Positions 18,040 through 26,410 of a stretch of 36,082 bases of DNA are shown here, piece by piece. Every line of letters begins with the position of its first letter. Within the stretch, counting starts at the first letter, position 1. The stretch lies in the NCBI GenBank assembly GCA_013153865.1, contig JAADDR010000126.1, positions 1 to 36,082 of the forward strand. The letters run 5' to 3'. Position numbers and translations under genes: made by a program. Under the pieces are notes generated by a model. It made no database searches. It saw only the letters and a list, made by a program, of their open reading frames with translations, and was not told the origin of the DNA. This DNA comes from Chlorobiota bacterium. Lineage in GTDB: Bacteria; Bacteroidota; Bacteroidia; Bacteroidales; JAADGE01.

Positions 18040-18063
18040 AATAATTGATAAAAATCAATTATT
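18040..18063. promoter_or_regulatory. FNR/DNR-type palindrome (TTGAT-N4-ATCAA) within 10-bp arms
   Basis: A perfect inverted repeat with 10-nt arms around AAAA. Its core at 18045-18058 is TTGAT-AAAA-ATCAA, identical to the FNR/DNR/NnrR consensus of other bacteria. It lies about 90 nt upstream of the likely start of transcription of the TetR gene. A Crp/Fnr-family regulator responding to oxygen or NO is a plausible ligand. The site is AT-rich, so chance or a simple hairpin cannot be excluded. Confidence 0.45.
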
Positions 18064-18139: not shown

Positions 18140-18163
18140 TTGTAAGTGAATGCTTACTTACAA
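18140..18163. promoter_or_regulatory. Inverted repeat, probable operator of the TetR regulator
   Basis: TTGTAAGT (18140-18147) and ACTTACAA (18156-18163) form a perfect 8-bp inverted repeat with an 8-nt spacer, ending 3 nt before the ATG at 18167. It overlaps the place where the promoter -7 element would be (a weak TTTCTTTG at 18135-18142). Autoregulation by the TetR protein is inferred. The GTG at 18146 lies inside the repeat and is rejected as a start. Confidence 0.55.
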
Positions 18164-18166
18164 GTA

Positions 18167-18763
18167 ATGAACGCAACATTGTCAGACAGGCAAAATCAAA
18201 TACTTGCAATATCCGTCGGGATTATACATACCTCAGGTATACAGGGGTTTACCATTAAAAGTCTTTCCAATGCAATCGGCTTTACGGAAGCTGCCATTTA
18301 CAGGCATTTTAAAAGTAAAAATGAGATATTATGTGCAATTCTGGATATGTTTATTCTTAAACTTAAAAAATTTGCACTTACAGTAAAAGGTTCTCAAATA
18401 AGTTCTTTCGAAAAAATTAAAATGGTTTACGATAAACTTTCTTCCGTATTTACGGAAAAACCAGCATATGTATCGGTTATTTTTGCGGAAGAAATATTTA
18501 AAAATAACGCATCTTTATCTAAAAAAGTCGGAAAAATATTAGAACTTAACAACAATGCTTTTAAAGAAATCATTGAAGACGGTCAAAAAAATAATGAAAT
18601 TACTAAAGATATAGAAAGCGAAGAACTTACCTTAGTTGTTATGGGAGCTTTTCGTTTATTGGTCAAGAATTGGAAAATGCGGGATTTTTCCTTTGAATTA
18701 AAGGCTAAAGCCGATAAACTTTATCTGAGTATTGAAACATTATTAAAATCGGAAAGAAAATAA
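18167..18763 (+). CDS. TetR/AcrR-family transcriptional regulator
   Basis: A DNA-binding regulator of 198 residues from the ATG at 18167. The N-terminal helix-turn-helix is clear: ILAISVGIIHTSGIQGFTIK, then LSNAIGFTEAAIYRHFKSKN with the typical YRHFKSK recognition-helix end (about residues 10-55). The rest is an all-helical ligand-binding and dimerisation domain containing PAYVSVIFAEEIF and a conserved-looking GAFRLLVKNW near the C-terminus. The ligand is unknown. A perfect inverted repeat overlaps its promoter, consistent with self-repression, and the next gene follows after 45 nt with no obvious promoter. It is likely the local regulator of the membrane-protein cluster. Confidence 0.9.
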   Translation: MNATLSDRQNQILAISVGIIHTSGIQGFTIKSLSNAIGFTEAAIYRHFKSKNEILCAILDMFILKLKKFALTVKGSQISSFEKIKMVYDKLSSVFTEKPAYVSVIFAEEIFKNNASLSKKVGKILELNNNAFKEIIEDGQKNNEITKDIESEELTLVVMGAFRLLVKNWKMRDFSFELKAKADKLYLSIETLLKSERK

Positions 18764-18808: not shown

Positions 18809-19909
18809 ATGTATACCAAAACTACAAAAAATCAAAGAACGATTGCAGCGGCTGTTGCAGTTATTGTAGGGCTTTATTTGTTGTTGATTGCGCCTACGCA
18901 AGCCATGACGACATTAAAATTGGCTTTACATGCCGTAATGGAAAGATTAATTCCGTTTGATCCGGATTTCTATACGGCAGTTCCGATTCTGGGAACAACT
19001 TTTGACATCTGGATTATTTTATTAACATTCGGAGGTTCACTATTATTGGTATTGGCTTACCGCATTTACAAAGGTAACCTCAATGCAAGAGCTGCCGGAC
19101 TCGGAATTACCGCTATAGCTTCCGTTGCCGGAATGACAATGTTTATCCCCTGGATGGTATTAATCGTATCAGATTATTCTAACGGTCCCGTACCCGGTAT
19201 TTTACCTCCTCCGGCTGATGTTAACGTTATGCCTTCGGTAATATGGATTATGGTAATCGGTCTTATCGGATACTTTGTATTTTTATTGTCTGATAAAGAT
19301 ACAATTAAAAACAAAATCTTTAAAAGCATTGTATATACGGGTATCGGAATTGTTGCAGGTATGGTATTCATGAATGCACAACACGGTGTTCGTTATTTCG
19401 AATTTATACCCGAATATTTAACGGATAATCCTACATTACAACGCTACGATAATCCGCTCGGAAACCCTCATACTAATTTAGATTATTATGATGCATTGGC
19501 ACTTACAACTATTTCTCAAGAACAAGTAAACCACTTAAAAGCCGGAGAAAAAGTTGCCATCGTACGTAAAGATCATACCGTAGATAACGTTGTTGTCAAA
19601 AAAACAAAACCCGAATATAATCCAAATACTCTTTCATTATTCTTGGGAGGATACGGAAACTACATTGCATCTTATTTAATGGTATTCTTAATTCCCTTCG
19701 TATTCTTACGCAAACGTTGGGCTTACAATGCAATGCTTATGGCTGTATTATTCTCTGCCGTAGCAACTTATTGGAATGCCATAATAAGAGGATCTTTCGA
19801 ATGGGTAATCGGAGGAACTTTATCATTAGGTTTATTGGTATTTATGCTTTTACCGATATTCAAACAATTCCTTACCGAACCTTATCCCGAAGAAGAAGGT
19901 GAAGAATAA
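18809..19909 (+). CDS. Polytopic membrane protein, unrecognised family, in the oxidase-like cluster
   Basis: I do not recognise the family. The 366 residues contain about eight hydrophobic helices: roughly 11-28, 65-87, 93-120, 142-164, 176-196, then after a soluble stretch 281-299, 305-328 and 333-350. Between helices 3 and 4 is a Pro-rich loop (GPVPGILPPPADVN). The soluble domain (about 198-278) follows NAQHGVRYFEFIPEY and contains LQRYDNPLGNPHTNLDYYD and a small beta-like GEKVAIVRKDHTVDNVVVKK segment. The C-terminus is acidic (EPYPEEEGEE). There are no CxxCH heme c motifs. It is encoded just after the TetR gene and ends at a terminator, ahead of the 215- and 508-residue membrane proteins. 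A role as an accessory subunit or partner is inferred from position. Confidence 0.6.
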   Translation: MYTKTTKNQRTIAAAVAVIVGLYLLLIAPTQAMTTLKLALHAVMERLIPFDPDFYTAVPILGTTFDIWIILLTFGGSLLLVLAYRIYKGNLNARAAGLGITAIASVAGMTMFIPWMVLIVSDYSNGPVPGILPPPADVNVMPSVIWIMVIGLIGYFVFLLSDKDTIKNKIFKSIVYTGIGIVAGMVFMNAQHGVRYFEFIPEYLTDNPTLQRYDNPLGNPHTNLDYYDALALTTISQEQVNHLKAGEKVAIVRKDHTVDNVVVKKTKPEYNPNTLSLFLGGYGNYIASYLMVFLIPFVFLRKRWAYNAMLMAVLFSAVATYWNAIIRGSFEWVIGGTLSLGLLVFMLLPIFKQFLTEPYPEEEGEE

Positions 19910-20073: not shown

Positions 20074-20721
20074 ATGGATCCAAAAACAACAATTCTAGAT
20101 TTAGTACTTTTGCTTTTAACCGGAGTTACGGCTCTTTATATGATTTATCGCTTTGTAACGGCTCTTAAAACATCAGAAGACAAGCCGAGATATTACATAA
20201 TGAACATAATCGCTTTTGCCGTAATTCTTGTTGCCGGAGTTTTAGTTATTTTCTTTGATTTTCAAGTTCTTAACAGACCTGAAATTAAAATTGTGGCAAC
20301 TCTTATTCCTTTTGCTTTGGCAATAGGACTTGTTTGCAGATTTTACAAACAATATGCAAATTATTTCAAAATCTTTTTGTTAATCGGTCTAATACTGATA
20401 ATCTTATTAAATTACGATGTTATCAGTGCAAAATTTATTTATCCGATATTCCATTCGGTTGCAGGACTTACAATTTTTGCCTTACCGATAATAGCGGTAA
20501 AAAAGAAATTGGTTGACCCCGGATTCATCGGAGTTACGATAGGAGGAGCAATAATAGGAATCGGAGGTATTGCACTGGCATTTCTCGGAGCAGGTAAACC
20601 CCTCTTGGGAATATTTACGGCTGATGTTGTTTTTGCTATCTTAACACCTATCTTATTTCTTATGACTTTAGGATTTGCTTACGGATTTATGAAAGATCTG
20701 AAAAATCCCGTGAAAAAATAA
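20074..20721 (+). CDS. Seven-helix membrane protein, unrecognised family
   Basis: A 215-residue very hydrophobic protein with seven predicted helices: about 6-32, 41-66, 73-89, 96-115, 122-143, 150-173 and 180-207. Charged residues lie in short loops and at the C-terminal KDLKNPVKK. A single His sits in a helix (YPIFHSVAGLTIF, about residue 128), and helix 6 is a Gly-rich GGAIIGIGG segment. I cannot assign it to a family. It lies 63 nt upstream of the 12-helix histidine-rich protein, with no terminator between, so the two are probably co-transcribed. It could be a small integral subunit of the same complex; this rests on context only. Confidence 0.6.
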   Translation: MDPKTTILDLVLLLLTGVTALYMIYRFVTALKTSEDKPRYYIMNIIAFAVILVAGVLVIFFDFQVLNRPEIKIVATLIPFALAIGLVCRFYKQYANYFKIFLLIGLILIILLNYDVISAKFIYPIFHSVAGLTIFALPIIAVKKKLVDPGFIGVTIGGAIIGIGGIALAFLGAGKPLLGIFTADVVFAILTPILFLMTLGFAYGFMKDLKNPVKK

Positions 20722-20784: not shown

Positions 20785-22311
20785 ATGAACAGATTTAATT
20801 ATCTTTTCTCCTCCACAAAAGGTCTGATACTGACGGCTATTTCTTTAATAGCCATTGTAACGGCGGTATTCCAAACACTGTCGGGACCTATGGTGGAATG
20901 GGGAATAAAAGATGTTACGGTAAAACTGCTCGGAATGGATTTAAATCCGCAAGAAAGAGCAGGACGAATTATTATGCTTTATCATACCATTGCAATGGCT
21001 GTCGTTGCTATTGAAGTGTATATGATAACATCAATTGTCCCGATGCGAAGACACGAGCAAAGAAATATCAATATGTTTATAACCGTAGGTTATATGACAG
21101 CTATGGTATTCGGCTTAGGTTTTGCATATTGGGGACATAACTTTACTTTCCACGGACTTTTTCTCGTAGGACAGTCATTAGTATTCTTTTCGGGCGTAAT
21201 GTTAGCCGTAGCGCTAAATCCCTGGAAAAAAGAATATTATGTTACGGATAAAGAATTTGCACACTTTAAAAGCGGTATGGACATGGAGAGAATGGCATTC
21301 TTTGTAATGACAATCGCCATGCTTATATCTGCCGGCTACGGAGCAGTTACCGGTTCGTTCTGGTCTAACGGACACGAAACATTCTTAGCCGAAGATCTTA
21401 TCAGAGATCCGCATAAAACTCATTTGCAAAAAGCCATTATAGGTCACTTGCATATTATGCTTACTCTTATTGCCGTTGCTATAACTCTTGTTGTGGGAAG
21501 ATGGCTTAAATTCAAAGGAGTATTCCATAAAATAGCTATGCCTTTTATGATTGTAGGAACAATAGTTATTGCCGGCGGTGTATGGTCGGTTGTATGGACT
21601 CACATGGCTCACACCTTTATATATATAGGTTCTGTGGGCGTAATGCTTGCAGCTTTTATGCTTGTAATATTCAGCTGGAAAAAACTTATTCATGATAATG
21701 CTGCCGAAATGGGATACGAAAACCCGAATTTTATTCAAAAATTAAAAGCATTATTCCACGACCCGATAAAATTCGGACCCGGCTGGCAAATGGTATTTAT
21801 GAATTTTACCGTGAGCGGCGTGGGTATTTTTATGGCTATAAAATTAGAGCAAATATTCAGAGTATGGCCTGCTCGCGAAGAACGTATCACATTAACCGGA
21901 CACTGGCATATTCTTGCAGCTCTTATAGCAACAATTATTATAATGTATTATGTTGATATTGTCGGAATAAAAGGCAAAATCAGAAAATGGTTCGGATGGA
22001 TTTTAATTATCGGATCCGATATTGCATTTGCATCAATGACAATTTATTCGATGAAACGATTAGTTGTTCCGAATGAAGTTGCACAACAAGGTGTTGTTAA
22101 TACAACAATGTTACTTACCGATTTCGGATTAGGCGCAATTCTTGTTTCTTTGGCAATTTTATTGGGTTGGAAATTATTCGACTTATTCCAAAAAGACGGT
22201 TTATGGAAAAAAGAAGCCGAAAATCCGGAATTAGAAGCGGAAAAAACATCCGATCCTGTTTTTAATTTAAAAAGAGAAAGCGAATTTAATACAGAAGGAG
22301 GTGTGAAATGA
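20785..22311 (+). CDS. Divergent heme-copper oxidase/NO reductase-like catalytic subunit (12 TM, His-rich)
   Basis: A 508-residue integral membrane protein for which I count 12 helices. Histidines sit in or at the ends of them: H67 (LYHTIAMA, helix 2), H118 and H123 (WGHNFTFHG, helices 3-4), H221 and H223 (IGHLHIML, helix 6), H273 and H276 (WTHMAHTF, end of helix 7), and H373 and H375 (TGHWHILA, helix 10). P. aeruginosa NorB uses H60, H207, H258/H259, H347 and H349, so the spacings 154, 52, 100 and 2 here compare with 147, 51, 89 and 2. Helices 2, 6 and 10 resemble one another, as expected from the threefold pseudo-symmetry of that superfamily. It lacks the adjacent His-His of helix 7 and the Glu/Tyr four residues after the helix-6 His (M225 here). 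CtaB is encoded downstream. Membership is inferred, and substrate and metals are unknown. The ATGA overlap couples it to the next gene. Confidence 0.65.
   Translation: MNRFNYLFSSTKGLILTAISLIAIVTAVFQTLSGPMVEWGIKDVTVKLLGMDLNPQERAGRIIMLYHTIAMAVVAIEVYMITSIVPMRRHEQRNINMFITVGYMTAMVFGLGFAYWGHNFTFHGLFLVGQSLVFFSGVMLAVALNPWKKEYYVTDKEFAHFKSGMDMERMAFFVMTIAMLISAGYGAVTGSFWSNGHETFLAEDLIRDPHKTHLQKAIIGHLHIMLTLIAVAITLVVGRWLKFKGVFHKIAMPFMIVGTIVIAGGVWSVVWTHMAHTFIYIGSVGVMLAAFMLVIFSWKKLIHDNAAEMGYENPNFIQKLKALFHDPIKFGPGWQMVFMNFTVSGVGIFMAIKLEQIFRVWPAREERITLTGHWHILAALIATIIIMYYVDIVGIKGKIRKWFGWILIIGSDIAFASMTIYSMKRLVVPNEVAQQGVVNTTMLLTDFGLGAILVSLAILLGWKLFDLFQKDGLWKKEAENPELEAEKTSDPVFNLKRESEFNTEGGVK
22296..22303 (+). promoter_or_regulatory. 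Perfect Shine-Dalgarno sequence at the coupled start of the SUMF1 lipoprotein
   Basis: AGGAGGTG lies 4 nt before the ATG at 22308, inside the end of the upstream gene whose stop overlaps it (ATGA). Such sequences are rare in this window, where most genes have none. It supports coupled translation of the two proteins, although the bases also encode Gly-Gly-Val. Confidence 0.6.
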
Positions 22312-23306
22312 GAAAGTTAGTATATTTATTTTTCGTATTATTTGCATTTGCAAGTTGTTCAAAAGAAGTTATAGTAAATCAGGAAGTTAAGCCTGTTGAT
22401 ACAGGCGTAAACCCCGACGAGTGGGTTCTTGTTCCCGCAGGACATTTTTACTATAATATGCATGCTCACGATGCCGTTATCGATAATGACTATGAAATTA
22501 TGGTAACAGATGTTACAAATAAACAATATGCCGAATTTATGAATAAAGCAGTTGCCGCAAAAGCAATAAAAATTGACGGCGACAGCATAAAAGGTCATTA
22601 TCCCGGCGATCCGTTCGACGGCTATTTGCACGAATGGAAAATACCCGAAGGTGATTATGTATTAATGCCTTTCGGCGAGCCCGGTTCTCATATAAAACTT
22701 GTTGACGGTAAATTTGTTGTTGACAAAGGTTTTGAAAATCATCCGGTTGTAATGGTAACTTGGTTCGGAGCTAAAGCATATGCCGATTTTTACGGTTACC
22801 GTTTGCCTACCGAAAAAGAATGGGCAAAAGCAGCAAGAGGAACCGATAAACGCGCATATCCTTGGGGAGACGAAATCTCTGTTGCCGTTACCAATTTTAA
22901 AAGCAGTCATAACGCAATTCAAAAAATGCTTGACGCAAAAATCGGAAGAACAACTCCCGTAGGATACTATAACGGTAAAAAATACGGTGATTTTCAAACC
23001 GAAGATAACAGAAGCCCCTACGGATTATACGATATGGGCGGAAATGTATGGCAATGGGTAGGCGATGATTATCCTGATGTTCACTATCGTTATATGAGAG
23101 GCGGAAGCTTTGACAATTATGAATACAATCTTTTTGTATGGGCAAGAAACAGTGCAGGACCCGATTATTACGGAATTAATGTCGGTTTCAGATGTGCAAG
23201 AGACGTAAAAACCGAAACAGTTACCGAAGTAGCGGTAGATTCGGTTTCTGCCGATACCTTAAAGGTTGAAGAAATAGAAGTTAAAGTTGAAGAGATAGAA
23301 AAATAG
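22308..23306 (+). CDS. SUMF1/FGE-fold lipoprotein, NirV-like, without FGE cysteines
   Basis: A 332-residue lipoprotein: the signal peptide ends in FASC with Cys17. Residues about 38-300 carry the SUMF1 (formylglycine-generating-enzyme) fold: DEWVLVPAGHF, VTNKQYAEFMN, HPVVMVTWFGAKAYADF, YRLPTEKEWAKAARG, YPWGD, GLYDMGGNVWQWV, YMRGGSF and GFRCARD. Active FGEs have a Cys pair shortly after RGGS; here the segment reads RGGSFDNYEYN, so formylglycine generation is not expected. SUMF1-fold proteins such as NirV accompany copper nitrite reductases, a loose parallel to this respiratory-looking context. The C-terminus ends in an acidic Val/Glu tail (KVEEIEVKVEEIE). Its start codon overlaps the stop of the oxidase-like gene and has a strong Shine-Dalgarno sequence. 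I infer an extracytoplasmic accessory subunit or assembly factor. Confidence 0.85.
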   Translation: MRKLVYLFFVLFAFASCSKEVIVNQEVKPVDTGVNPDEWVLVPAGHFYYNMHAHDAVIDNDYEIMVTDVTNKQYAEFMNKAVAAKAIKIDGDSIKGHYPGDPFDGYLHEWKIPEGDYVLMPFGEPGSHIKLVDGKFVVDKGFENHPVVMVTWFGAKAYADFYGYRLPTEKEWAKAARGTDKRAYPWGDEISVAVTNFKSSHNAIQKMLDAKIGRTTPVGYYNGKKYGDFQTEDNRSPYGLYDMGGNVWQWVGDDYPDVHYRYMRGGSFDNYEYNLFVWARNSAGPDYYGINVGFRCARDVKTETVTEVAVDSVSADTLKVEEIEVKVEEIEK

Positions 23307-24276: not shown

Positions 24277-24696
24277 ATGCCGAAAGTTCACAAAAACGTA
24301 TTGATACTTATAGCGGGAATTTTATGGACAGGAGTTGGAATTCTCCTGAATTTTTTTGCAAGCAGATGGATTCCCGTTCTTTCTTCGGGAGAATTAATAT
24401 TCGGGATTATTTTGGGAATAGCGGGCGGAGCGGCAATTGCATATTTCGGTTTCGGAAAACTTGCCGATAAAAATATTATGAGAATTGATGCTTACGAAGG
24501 CAAAGTTTGTATGTGGGCATTCCAAAAATGGCAATCTTATATTCTTATTATTTTTATGATAAGTCTGGGTATTTTTATGAGAACAAGCGGTTTAGTTCCT
24601 AAAATTATTCTTACTCCGATGTATATTGCCATAGGTTTAGCGTTGTTTATTTCGAGTTTCAGATATTATCTTTTTCTTTTTAAGCAGAAAAAGTAA
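24277..24696 (+). CDS. Small four-helix membrane protein (paralogue 1)
   Basis: A 139-residue protein with four predicted helices: about 8-29, 40-61, 88-107 and 112-134. I do not recognise the family. Shared with the next gene are an opening L-I-L-x-x-G-[IL]-[IL]-W followed by a W-[IL]-P-[VL] turn, an IxRI motif after helix 2, and a G-x-x-[ML]-R-x-S/T turn before K-[IV]-x-L-x-P-[MV]-Y. The turn between helices 2 and 3 holds a Cys and several Trp (GKVCMWAFQKWQSY). It starts 15 nt after ctaB and ends 2 nt before its paralogue, so the three form one unit. A membrane accessory role for the oxidase-like complex is inferred from context only. Confidence 0.65.
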   Translation: MPKVHKNVLILIAGILWTGVGILLNFFASRWIPVLSSGELIFGIILGIAGGAAIAYFGFGKLADKNIMRIDAYEGKVCMWAFQKWQSYILIIFMISLGIFMRTSGLVPKIILTPMYIAIGLALFISSFRYYLFLFKQKK

Positions 24697-24698
24697 AT

Positions 24699-25136
24699 AT
24701 GATTAAATTAAAAAAAAGAGATTTAATTTTATTTACCGGCTTAATATGGCTTTGGGCAGGAATATTGCTTTTGTTCAGAGCTTATTCGTGGCTTCCTCTT
24801 TTAAACGGAAAAGAGATGCTTGCGGGTTTTTTTGCGGCAATTTTAATTGCCTTTATAAAAATAAAACTTATTTTTAAGAAACTTACGGAAGGCAATATAA
24901 AAAGAATTTCAGGTATTAAAGACGACAAAGTAAGCATTTTAAAATTTCACTTACCGAAAGACCAAATTTTTATAATAATAATGATAGTAGGCGGTTCTTT
25001 GCTGCGAAAATCAAATATTATATCTAAAGTTTATCTTATGCCTGTTTATGCGGGTATCGGTTCGGCAATGTTGTATTCTGCCGGACTTTATGTTTCTTAC
25101 TTTTTGAAATCAACCGAAAAAATTAAAAAAGAATAG
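24699..25136 (+). CDS. Small four-helix membrane protein (paralogue 2)
   Basis: A 145-residue protein clearly related to the preceding gene over its whole length, for example LILFTGLIWLWAGILLLF against LILIAGILWTGVGILLNF. It has the same four-helix layout. It differs in lacking the Cys/Trp stretch, which here is DDKVSILKFHLPKDQ, and in a more basic C-terminus (KSTEKIKKE). The start ATG is 2 nt after the stop of paralogue 1, indicating tandem duplication and tight co-translation. The family is not recognised. Two diverged copies kept side by side suggest a heterodimer. A 7-bp inverted repeat follows at 25163-25181. Confidence 0.65.
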   Translation: MIKLKKRDLILFTGLIWLWAGILLLFRAYSWLPLLNGKEMLAGFFAAILIAFIKIKLIFKKLTEGNIKRISGIKDDKVSILKFHLPKDQIFIIIMIVGGSLLRKSNIISKVYLMPVYAGIGSAMLYSAGLYVSYFLKSTEKIKKE

Positions 25137-26013: not shown

Positions 26014-26026
26014 AAATTTGAGAAAA

Positions 26027-26410
26027 ATGGACAGAAAATTTATTATAGCGGGAGCTGTTCTCGGCGGATTGGCAGTTGCGATAGGAGCTTACGGAGCTCA
26101 CGGCGGAGCAAAATACATGACTCCCGAAACGGCAATTACTTTCGGTAAAGCCGTAAAATATCAAATGCATCATGCATTGGCAATATTAATAACTGCGTTG
26201 CTTACGGCACATATGCCCCGACAATCTAAGATATTAAATTTGGCGGGATATGCTTTCTTGGGCGGAGTAGTATTTTTTTCCGGAAGTTTATATCTTATAG
26301 TTTTTGCCGGTGCTCATCCGGGATATATAACTCCTTTCGGCGGAACTTTGTTTGTGGCGGGGTGGTTGTTGCTGGTTTATGCCGCTTTAAAAAACAAAAA
26401 ACAAGAATAG
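26027..26410 (+). CDS. DUF423 family small membrane protein
   Basis: A protein of 127 residues from the ATG at 26027; a TTG nine bases earlier opens the same frame but is less likely. The sequence matches the DUF423 (YgdD-like) family: an N-terminal Gly-rich helix (GAVLGGLAVAIGAYGAHG), then FGKAVKYQMHHALAILI with the conserved MHH, then AGYAFLGGVVFFSGSLYLIVF, and a final GTLFVAGWLLLVYAAL helix, four helices in all. The biochemical function of the family is not known. It starts 13 nt after the barrel gene and ends 4 nt before idi, so it is probably co-transcribed with both. Confidence 0.88.
   Translation: MDRKFIIAGAVLGGLAVAIGAYGAHGGAKYMTPETAITFGKAVKYQMHHALAILITALLTAHMPRQSKILNLAGYAFLGGVVFFSGSLYLIVFAGAHPGYITPFGGTLFVAGWLLLVYAALKNKKQE

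Follow-up and report, generated by a model that had tools for sequence, protein, structure and literature searches.

A conserved family of 12-helix membrane proteins with a predicted heme-copper oxidase fold, seven invariant histidines and a linked heme O synthase

Within a 36,082-nucleotide contig of a Chlorobiota bacterium (JAADDR010000126.1, assembly GCA_013153865.1; the whole stretch is termed the window) we delineated a gene for a 508-residue membrane protein. It belongs to a conserved family characterized by a predicted 12-helix heme-copper oxidase (HCO) fold, seven invariant histidines, an Ala-His pair and a conserved gene set (Table 1). Our preferred reading, to which we assign a probability of roughly one half, is that the protein is the heme-O-bearing catalytic subunit of a very deep HCO branch that has so far gone undescribed, with the reduction of nitric oxide (NO) as its likeliest reaction.

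The open reading frame is a genuine gene, and one scan of species genomes yielded 27 homologous loci with best-segment identities of 62–89%. Its translation places H67, H221/H223, H273/H276 and H373/H375 exactly where the first-pass annotation of this DNA had put them. Searching the protein against Pfam and NCBIfam models gave nothing relevant even at E-values up to 1: neither the COX1/NOR models of PF00115 nor NnrS (PF05940) matched, nor did any transporter family, a match that the first pass had named as refuting its reading. PDB sequences likewise returned nothing relevant in a single-sequence and a profile search, and one of the most distant members (L079) gave 0 matches to NCBIfam at E up to 0.1. 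The profile–profile comparison proposed at first pass, performed against aa3, cbb3, qNOR and NOR-like sets compiled within this analysis, resulted in E-values of 0.01–0.5, below significance, those obtained under '-shift 0.2' being discounted as artefacts of the setting. The identity to HCO subunit I proteins, cbb3 CcoN included, is ~9%. Because the profile comparisons reach only these values, the assignment to the HCOs rests on the fold and the ligand pattern.

The AlphaFold model, calculated from a shallow input of 18 homologous sequences, has a mean pLDDT of 73.7 and a pTM of 0.80. Residues 11–33, 55–84, 89–116, 120–143, 167–191 and 213–240 form helices 1–6, and residues 246–267, 275–308, 327–352, 364–393, 398–422 and 434–468 form helices 7–12. 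These 12 long helices, as many as had been counted at first pass, adopt the three-pore arrangement of HCOs in this moderate-confidence model, which is weakest at residues 191–207 and 345–372, adjoining the proposed ligands. The top rows of a Foldseek search were all HCO subunit I proteins, with a best E-value of only 1.8e-3. VIA-align ranked cbb3 oxidase first (3mk7; Z 21.4, 4.3 Å over 400 residues), followed by aa3 oxidase (3omi; Z 19.7) and cNOR (4xyd; Z 19.3), and all 50 of the 50 entries listed belonged to the HCO superfamily. For scale, the 7-TM protein of the same operon resembles generic, unrelated 7-TM bundles at Z up to 14.4, with no HCO among its 50 listed entries. The fold similarity thus upholds the first-pass placement in a far branch of the HCO superfamily, reached without a significant profile match; the contrary outcome named there, a predicted fold lacking the 12-helix three-pore arrangement, did not arise.

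In HCOs, the low-spin heme is bound by a helix-2 histidine together with the second histidine of the helix-10 HxH motif, and the high-spin heme by the first histidine of this motif. CuB or FeB is bound by a helix-6 histidine and a helix-7 His-His pair, and the third pore is empty. An alignment of 34 sequences, extending down to ~36% identity, revealed seven invariant histidines (H67, H123, H221, H223, H276, H373 and H375), further invariant residues M225, A275 and W374, and invariant charges at R58, R61, E203, R207, D326, E366, R367 and D391. Most 12-TM HCO homologs reportedly keep two histidines. The residues corresponding to the heme ligands (H67, H373, H375) are all present and invariant. 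The canonical three-histidine CuB/FeB set is altered, with A275-H276 at helix 7/8 and two invariant histidines in helix 6. H123 has no counterpart in known HCOs.

These data bear out several first-pass proposals: helix 7 has no His-His pair (Ala-His is invariant in the 34 sequences), helix 6 has neither Glu nor Tyr at +4 of H221 (M225 is invariant), and helix 6 carries an extra histidine, H221 and H223 both being invariant. From its list of histidines, H67, H221, H223, H276, H373 and H375 were retained, whereas H273 is not conserved and the invariant H123 had been overlooked. The proposed HxxH ligand motif (273/276) was rejected, as residue 273 is Trp or another residue in most homologs; HxxH is therefore not a motif, and the conserved pair is A275-H276. 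Furthermore, contrary to the first-pass statement, H276 opens helix 8 in the model and does not end helix 7. H197 was rejected as a ligand as well, being invariant among close homologs only and Phe in many others. Position 227, at +4 of H223, is Thr, Ala or Met among homologs, and Y280, which follows H276 in helix 8, gives way to Asn in L079 and L080, the two most distant members. Loop charges and helix count fit an N-in topology, in which the seven histidines would all lie towards the periplasmic side, in agreement with HCOs.

Profile alignment identified an internal repeat, in which residues 155–322 align with 315–480 at an E-value of 6.8e-7 in a register setting H221 on H373 and H223 on H375. 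The likeness of helix 2 to the other repeats was not significant (pairwise E 0.08–0.33); of the resemblance among helices 2, 6 and 10 described at first pass, the part concerning helices 6 and 10 therefore stands, whereas that concerning helix 2 does not. H123 pairs with H276 at an offset of 153, the top of the scan (z 2.8). H223 is the preferred metal ligand, since under threefold symmetry the active-site-facing residue of helix 6 matches the second helix-10 histidine; with H223 matching H375 and H123 matching H276, H221 and H123 would face the third pore. This choice agrees with the spacing to A275, as the 52 residues from H223 are nearer than the 54 from H221 to the 49–51 of aa3, cbb3 and NOR-like proteins. 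As counter-evidence, weak unconstrained profile alignments set H221 on the CuB histidine of cbb3 and qNOR. Gapless scans carrying the threefold register over from known HCOs gave a weak signal. Taken together, conservation, topology and internal symmetry suggest that the histidines may cluster at hemes.

Table 1 Features of the locus and proposed ligand residues. Positions refer to the window unless a locus is named.
Feature	Position	Strand	Basis
TetR-family regulator, 205 aa, cluster head	18146..18763	+	PF00440/PF08359; also upstream in Bacteroidota and Marinimicrobia loci
Membrane protein, 366 aa, ~8 hydrophobic segments	18809..19909	+	no family; conserved in Bacteroidota, Marinimicrobia and Melioribacteraceae operons
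7-TM protein, 215 aa, one invariant His (H127)	20074..20721	+	model pLDDT 93, 7 helices
HCO-like 12-TM protein, 508 aa	20785..22311	+	ORF; homologs; predicted fold; residue conservation
H67, helix 2; proposed low-spin heme ligand with H375	20983..20985	+	invariant; role from superfamily topology
H123, helix 3/4 loop; proposed extra third-pore site	21151..21153	+	invariant; role inferred
H221, helix 6; third-pore site (preferred) or FeB/CuB ligand	21445..21447	+	invariant; repeat alignment
H223, helix 6; preferred FeB/CuB ligand	21451..21453	+	invariant; repeat alignment; spacing
M225, helix 6, +4 of H221	21457..21459	+	invariant
A275-H276, replaces helix-7 His-His pair	21607..21612	+	invariant
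H373-W374-H375, helix 10; proposed high-spin (H373) and low-spin (H375) heme ligands	21901..21909	+	invariant; roles from topology
FGE-sulfatase-fold lipoprotein, 332 aa; proposed periplasmic subunit	22308..23306	+	PF03781 E 6.9e-42
Heme O synthase CyoE, 290 aa	23389..24261	+	TIGR01473 225 bits, over cut-off
Small membrane protein, 139 aa; paralog of 24699..25136 product	24277..24696	+	no family
Small membrane protein, 145 aa; paralog of 24277..24696 product	24699..25136	+	no family
FmdE-like/NapH-like side genes	L020:1790-3370, L021:2677-4257, L021:5477-6310, L005:3140-3871		

Compared with cbb3 CcoN and other PF00115 HCOs, the family shares the 12-helix fold as well as histidines in helix 2, helix 6, the helix 7/8 turn and the helix-10 HxH, but differs by Ala-His in place of His-His, the extra H123 and the second helix-6 histidine; it also lacks a recognised CcoO/CcoP or CuA subunit and a catalytic Tyr at any known position. 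A- and B-family oxygen reductases carry Tyr at +4 of the helix-6 histidine, as do the aligned aa3 sequences, whereas the present family has Met or Thr/Ala/Met. The cNOR and qNOR enzymes (NorB/NorZ) are similar in fold, in histidine spacing and possibly in an NO role; in contrast to their Glu at helix-6 +4, the family exhibits Met after H221 and a variable residue after H223, has neither the His-His pair nor a recognised cytochrome c partner, and possesses an operon-encoded heme O synthase. In known families the +4 residue is Y, E, Q, N or D (table in PMC8756737). The eNOR, sNOR, gNOR and CuANOR variants, which carry a cupredoxin subunit II, provide a precedent for altered active-site residues (Q, N, D) in NOR-type HCOs (PMC8756737); unlike eNOR, sNOR and gNOR, the HCO-like family lacks Q, N and D at +4, and no cupredoxin-like gene was recognised in the window's operon.

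A NOR-like PF00115 family (L045, L049, L088:11316-12944), observed in relatives from the Bacteroidales and also next to the L080 member, retains the helix-7 His-His pair and the HxH motif and has Leu-Asp at the expected helix-6 CuB histidine, whereas the HCO-like family has Ala-His and no PF00115 match. For some HCO homology proteins of the NnrS kind (Pei et al. 2014, as cited in other work) a 12-helix three-unit architecture is reported, and there is a link to NO detoxification; the present family differs from them in its seven invariant histidines and the missing NnrS Pfam match. In relatives we also observed proteins of 430–443 residues (e.g. L051:1132-2445) with weak and piecemeal PF00115 matches and an HxH (HFH) in one helix, possibly NnrS-type HCO homologs.

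The gene context was assessed on 44 core loci with duplicates removed and downstream DNA available. The gene for the FGE-fold lipoprotein lies directly downstream of the HCO-like gene in all 44, overlapping it by 4 bases in the window, and a heme O synthase gene is found nearby in 42. In the Marinimicrobia loci L011 and L012 the HCO-like gene is flanked by a heme O synthase gene on each side, making two per locus. The lipoprotein exhibits a lipobox-like amino terminus (read by eye) and only two cysteines in its whole sequence, one of them within the lipobox, so that the pair of copper-binding cysteines known from catalytic FGE appears to be missing. Two paralogs of the 7-TM protein are present in many operons elsewhere, and such proteins flank many HCO-like loci.

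Several side observations concern the surroundings of the operon. A DUF423 (YgdD) protein is encoded nearby (26018–26410) and recurs in Bacteroidota and Melioribacteraceae loci; DUF423 has been proposed as a four-helix HCO relative (PMC4602095). A perfect FNR-type box (TTGATAAAAATCAA) is located at 18045–18058, ~90 bases before the TetR start, with 0.10 expected by chance in the window; it is not conserved among relatives and was rejected as a conserved regulatory sign. Some Chloroflexota loci carry NapH-like ferredoxin, FmdE-like and Crp-like genes. In Anaerolineales, genes for secreted proteins resembling doubled FmdE domains (the L020 protein with a Pfam match) and a NapH-like membrane ferredoxin lie upstream, and a NapH-like gene was also found in a Draconibacterium bin.

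We found homologs in Bacteroidota, Marinimicrobia, Melioribacteraceae and Aminicenantes as well as in Chloroflexota, where a profile search added members at 55–58% identity and the two at ~36% (L079 and L080); none was found in viral_contigs. In the tree, L079 and L080 are located on a very long branch apart from all other members, which fall into two groups: a second clade from Chloroflexota and one in which Bacteroidota, Marinimicrobia, Melioribacteraceae, Aminicenantes and Anaerolineales are mixed. Within the window's genus, CyoE-type matches of at least 200 bits were obtained in exactly four of 14 genomes, the same four that carry the HCO-like gene; the other ten show weak UbiA-type matches (69–79 bits) or none, and several of them have cbb3 or qNOR. 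As CyoE in the genus is restricted to genomes with the HCO-like gene, the HCO-like protein is probably what heme O is made for. One PF00115 protein, a qNOR-like one, is encoded in the window's own genome. A linkage to denitrification via nosZ was rejected, since nosZ exceeded the cut-off in 7 genomes only, mostly Marinimicrobia hosts; neither the window's genome nor the other genomes of its genus that carry the HCO-like gene have it.

Indications for NO are provided only by the genes that surround the two most distant members. The L079 gene starts 12 bases after a flavodiiron-protein gene (best match NorV-type flavorubredoxin, 3.8e-69), in a neighbourhood that includes a DUF438-hemerythrin-PAS gene, and the L080 gene lies downstream of a NOR-like PF00115 gene and a gene for a CoxB-like cupredoxin. 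These neighbours suggest NO handling, with the reduction of O2 as well as NO by flavodiiron proteins as a counterargument. As both members have no FGE and CyoE genes alongside, the link reaches the main clade, where no NO gene was recognised beside the HCO-like gene, by homology only.

In the preferred reading, a low-spin heme would be held by H67 and H375 and a high-spin heme by H373, with heme O as at least one of the two. A non-heme metal opposite the high-spin heme would be coordinated by one helix-6 histidine, preferably H223, and by H276, one canonical ligand being missing, and the third pore, empty in known HCOs, would be lined by H123, the other helix-6 histidine and perhaps M225. Quinol is the probable electron donor, because we recognised neither a cytochrome c nor a cupredoxin subunit among the operon's products. 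The likeliest reaction would be the two-electron conversion of NO to N2O in detoxification or respiration, with O2 reduction ranked second. A tentative extension, to which we give low odds, has all three pores filled: the H67/H375 low-spin heme, a high-spin heme on H373 paired with a His-poor non-heme metal on H223/H276, and, in the third pore, either one more heme or a His2Met copper site formed by H123, H221 and M225.

The main alternative, that the same fold acts as a terminal oxygen reductase, either a heme-O quinol oxidase or an O2 scavenger in anaerobes or microaerobes, appears rather unlikely. Known NORs use heme b, so that a dedicated heme O synthase, as with bo3 oxidase, suits an oxidase equally, and the flavodiiron and hemerythrin neighbours of the distant member handle O2 too; however, the crosslinked position has no invariant Tyr, Y280 is replaced by Asn in L079 and L080, and ordinary PF00115 oxidases or NORs are already present in 23 of 28 host genomes. 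A non-respiratory, NnrS-like role of a heme-bearing HCO-fold protein that has lost catalysis, such as NO binding or sensing or metal or heme handling, is unlikely: it would account for the Ala at one canonical metal-ligand position, and HCO-homologous families beyond the classical enzymes have been reported (Pei et al. 2014, as cited in PMC4602095 and PMC11218638), but the invariant histidines are more numerous than in catalytic HCOs, a dedicated heme O synthase is present and the NnrS Pfam model does not match. That the protein is an unrelated 12-TM protein, its shallow model resembling HCOs through a common helical arrangement, would fit the absent sequence and profile signal and the mean pLDDT of 74 but is very unlikely in view of Z-scores of 19–21 over ~400 residues with HCOs alone among the 50 listed (14.4 for the unrelated 7-TM comparison), histidines in helices 2, 6, 7/8 and 10 that match the HCO pattern, and the linked heme O synthase.

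NOR-type HCOs with altered residues Q, N and D (PMC8756737) and distant HCO homologs (Pei et al. 2014, as cited in other work) are already known. In the literature we found no description of a family with a helix-7 Ala-His and seven invariant histidines (10.1073/pnas.2316422121 and PMC4243994 lie outside the scope of this statement). Since the sequence models used to survey HCOs and NORs do not detect the family, censuses of O2 and NO reduction leave it out. If the preferred reading holds and NO is turned over, several anaerobic phyla would gain an unrecognised source of N2O or NO defence. If the ligand set is real, a His3 non-heme site would not be obligatory in the HCO fold, and the extra invariant histidines would provide a means of testing how the threefold architecture evolved. 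Should the three-centre arrangement be true, the family would provide the first example of three such centres within one HCO subunit, and the threefold symmetry of the superfamily would become functional. The active site of this family may thus be a respiratory one of a previously undescribed kind.
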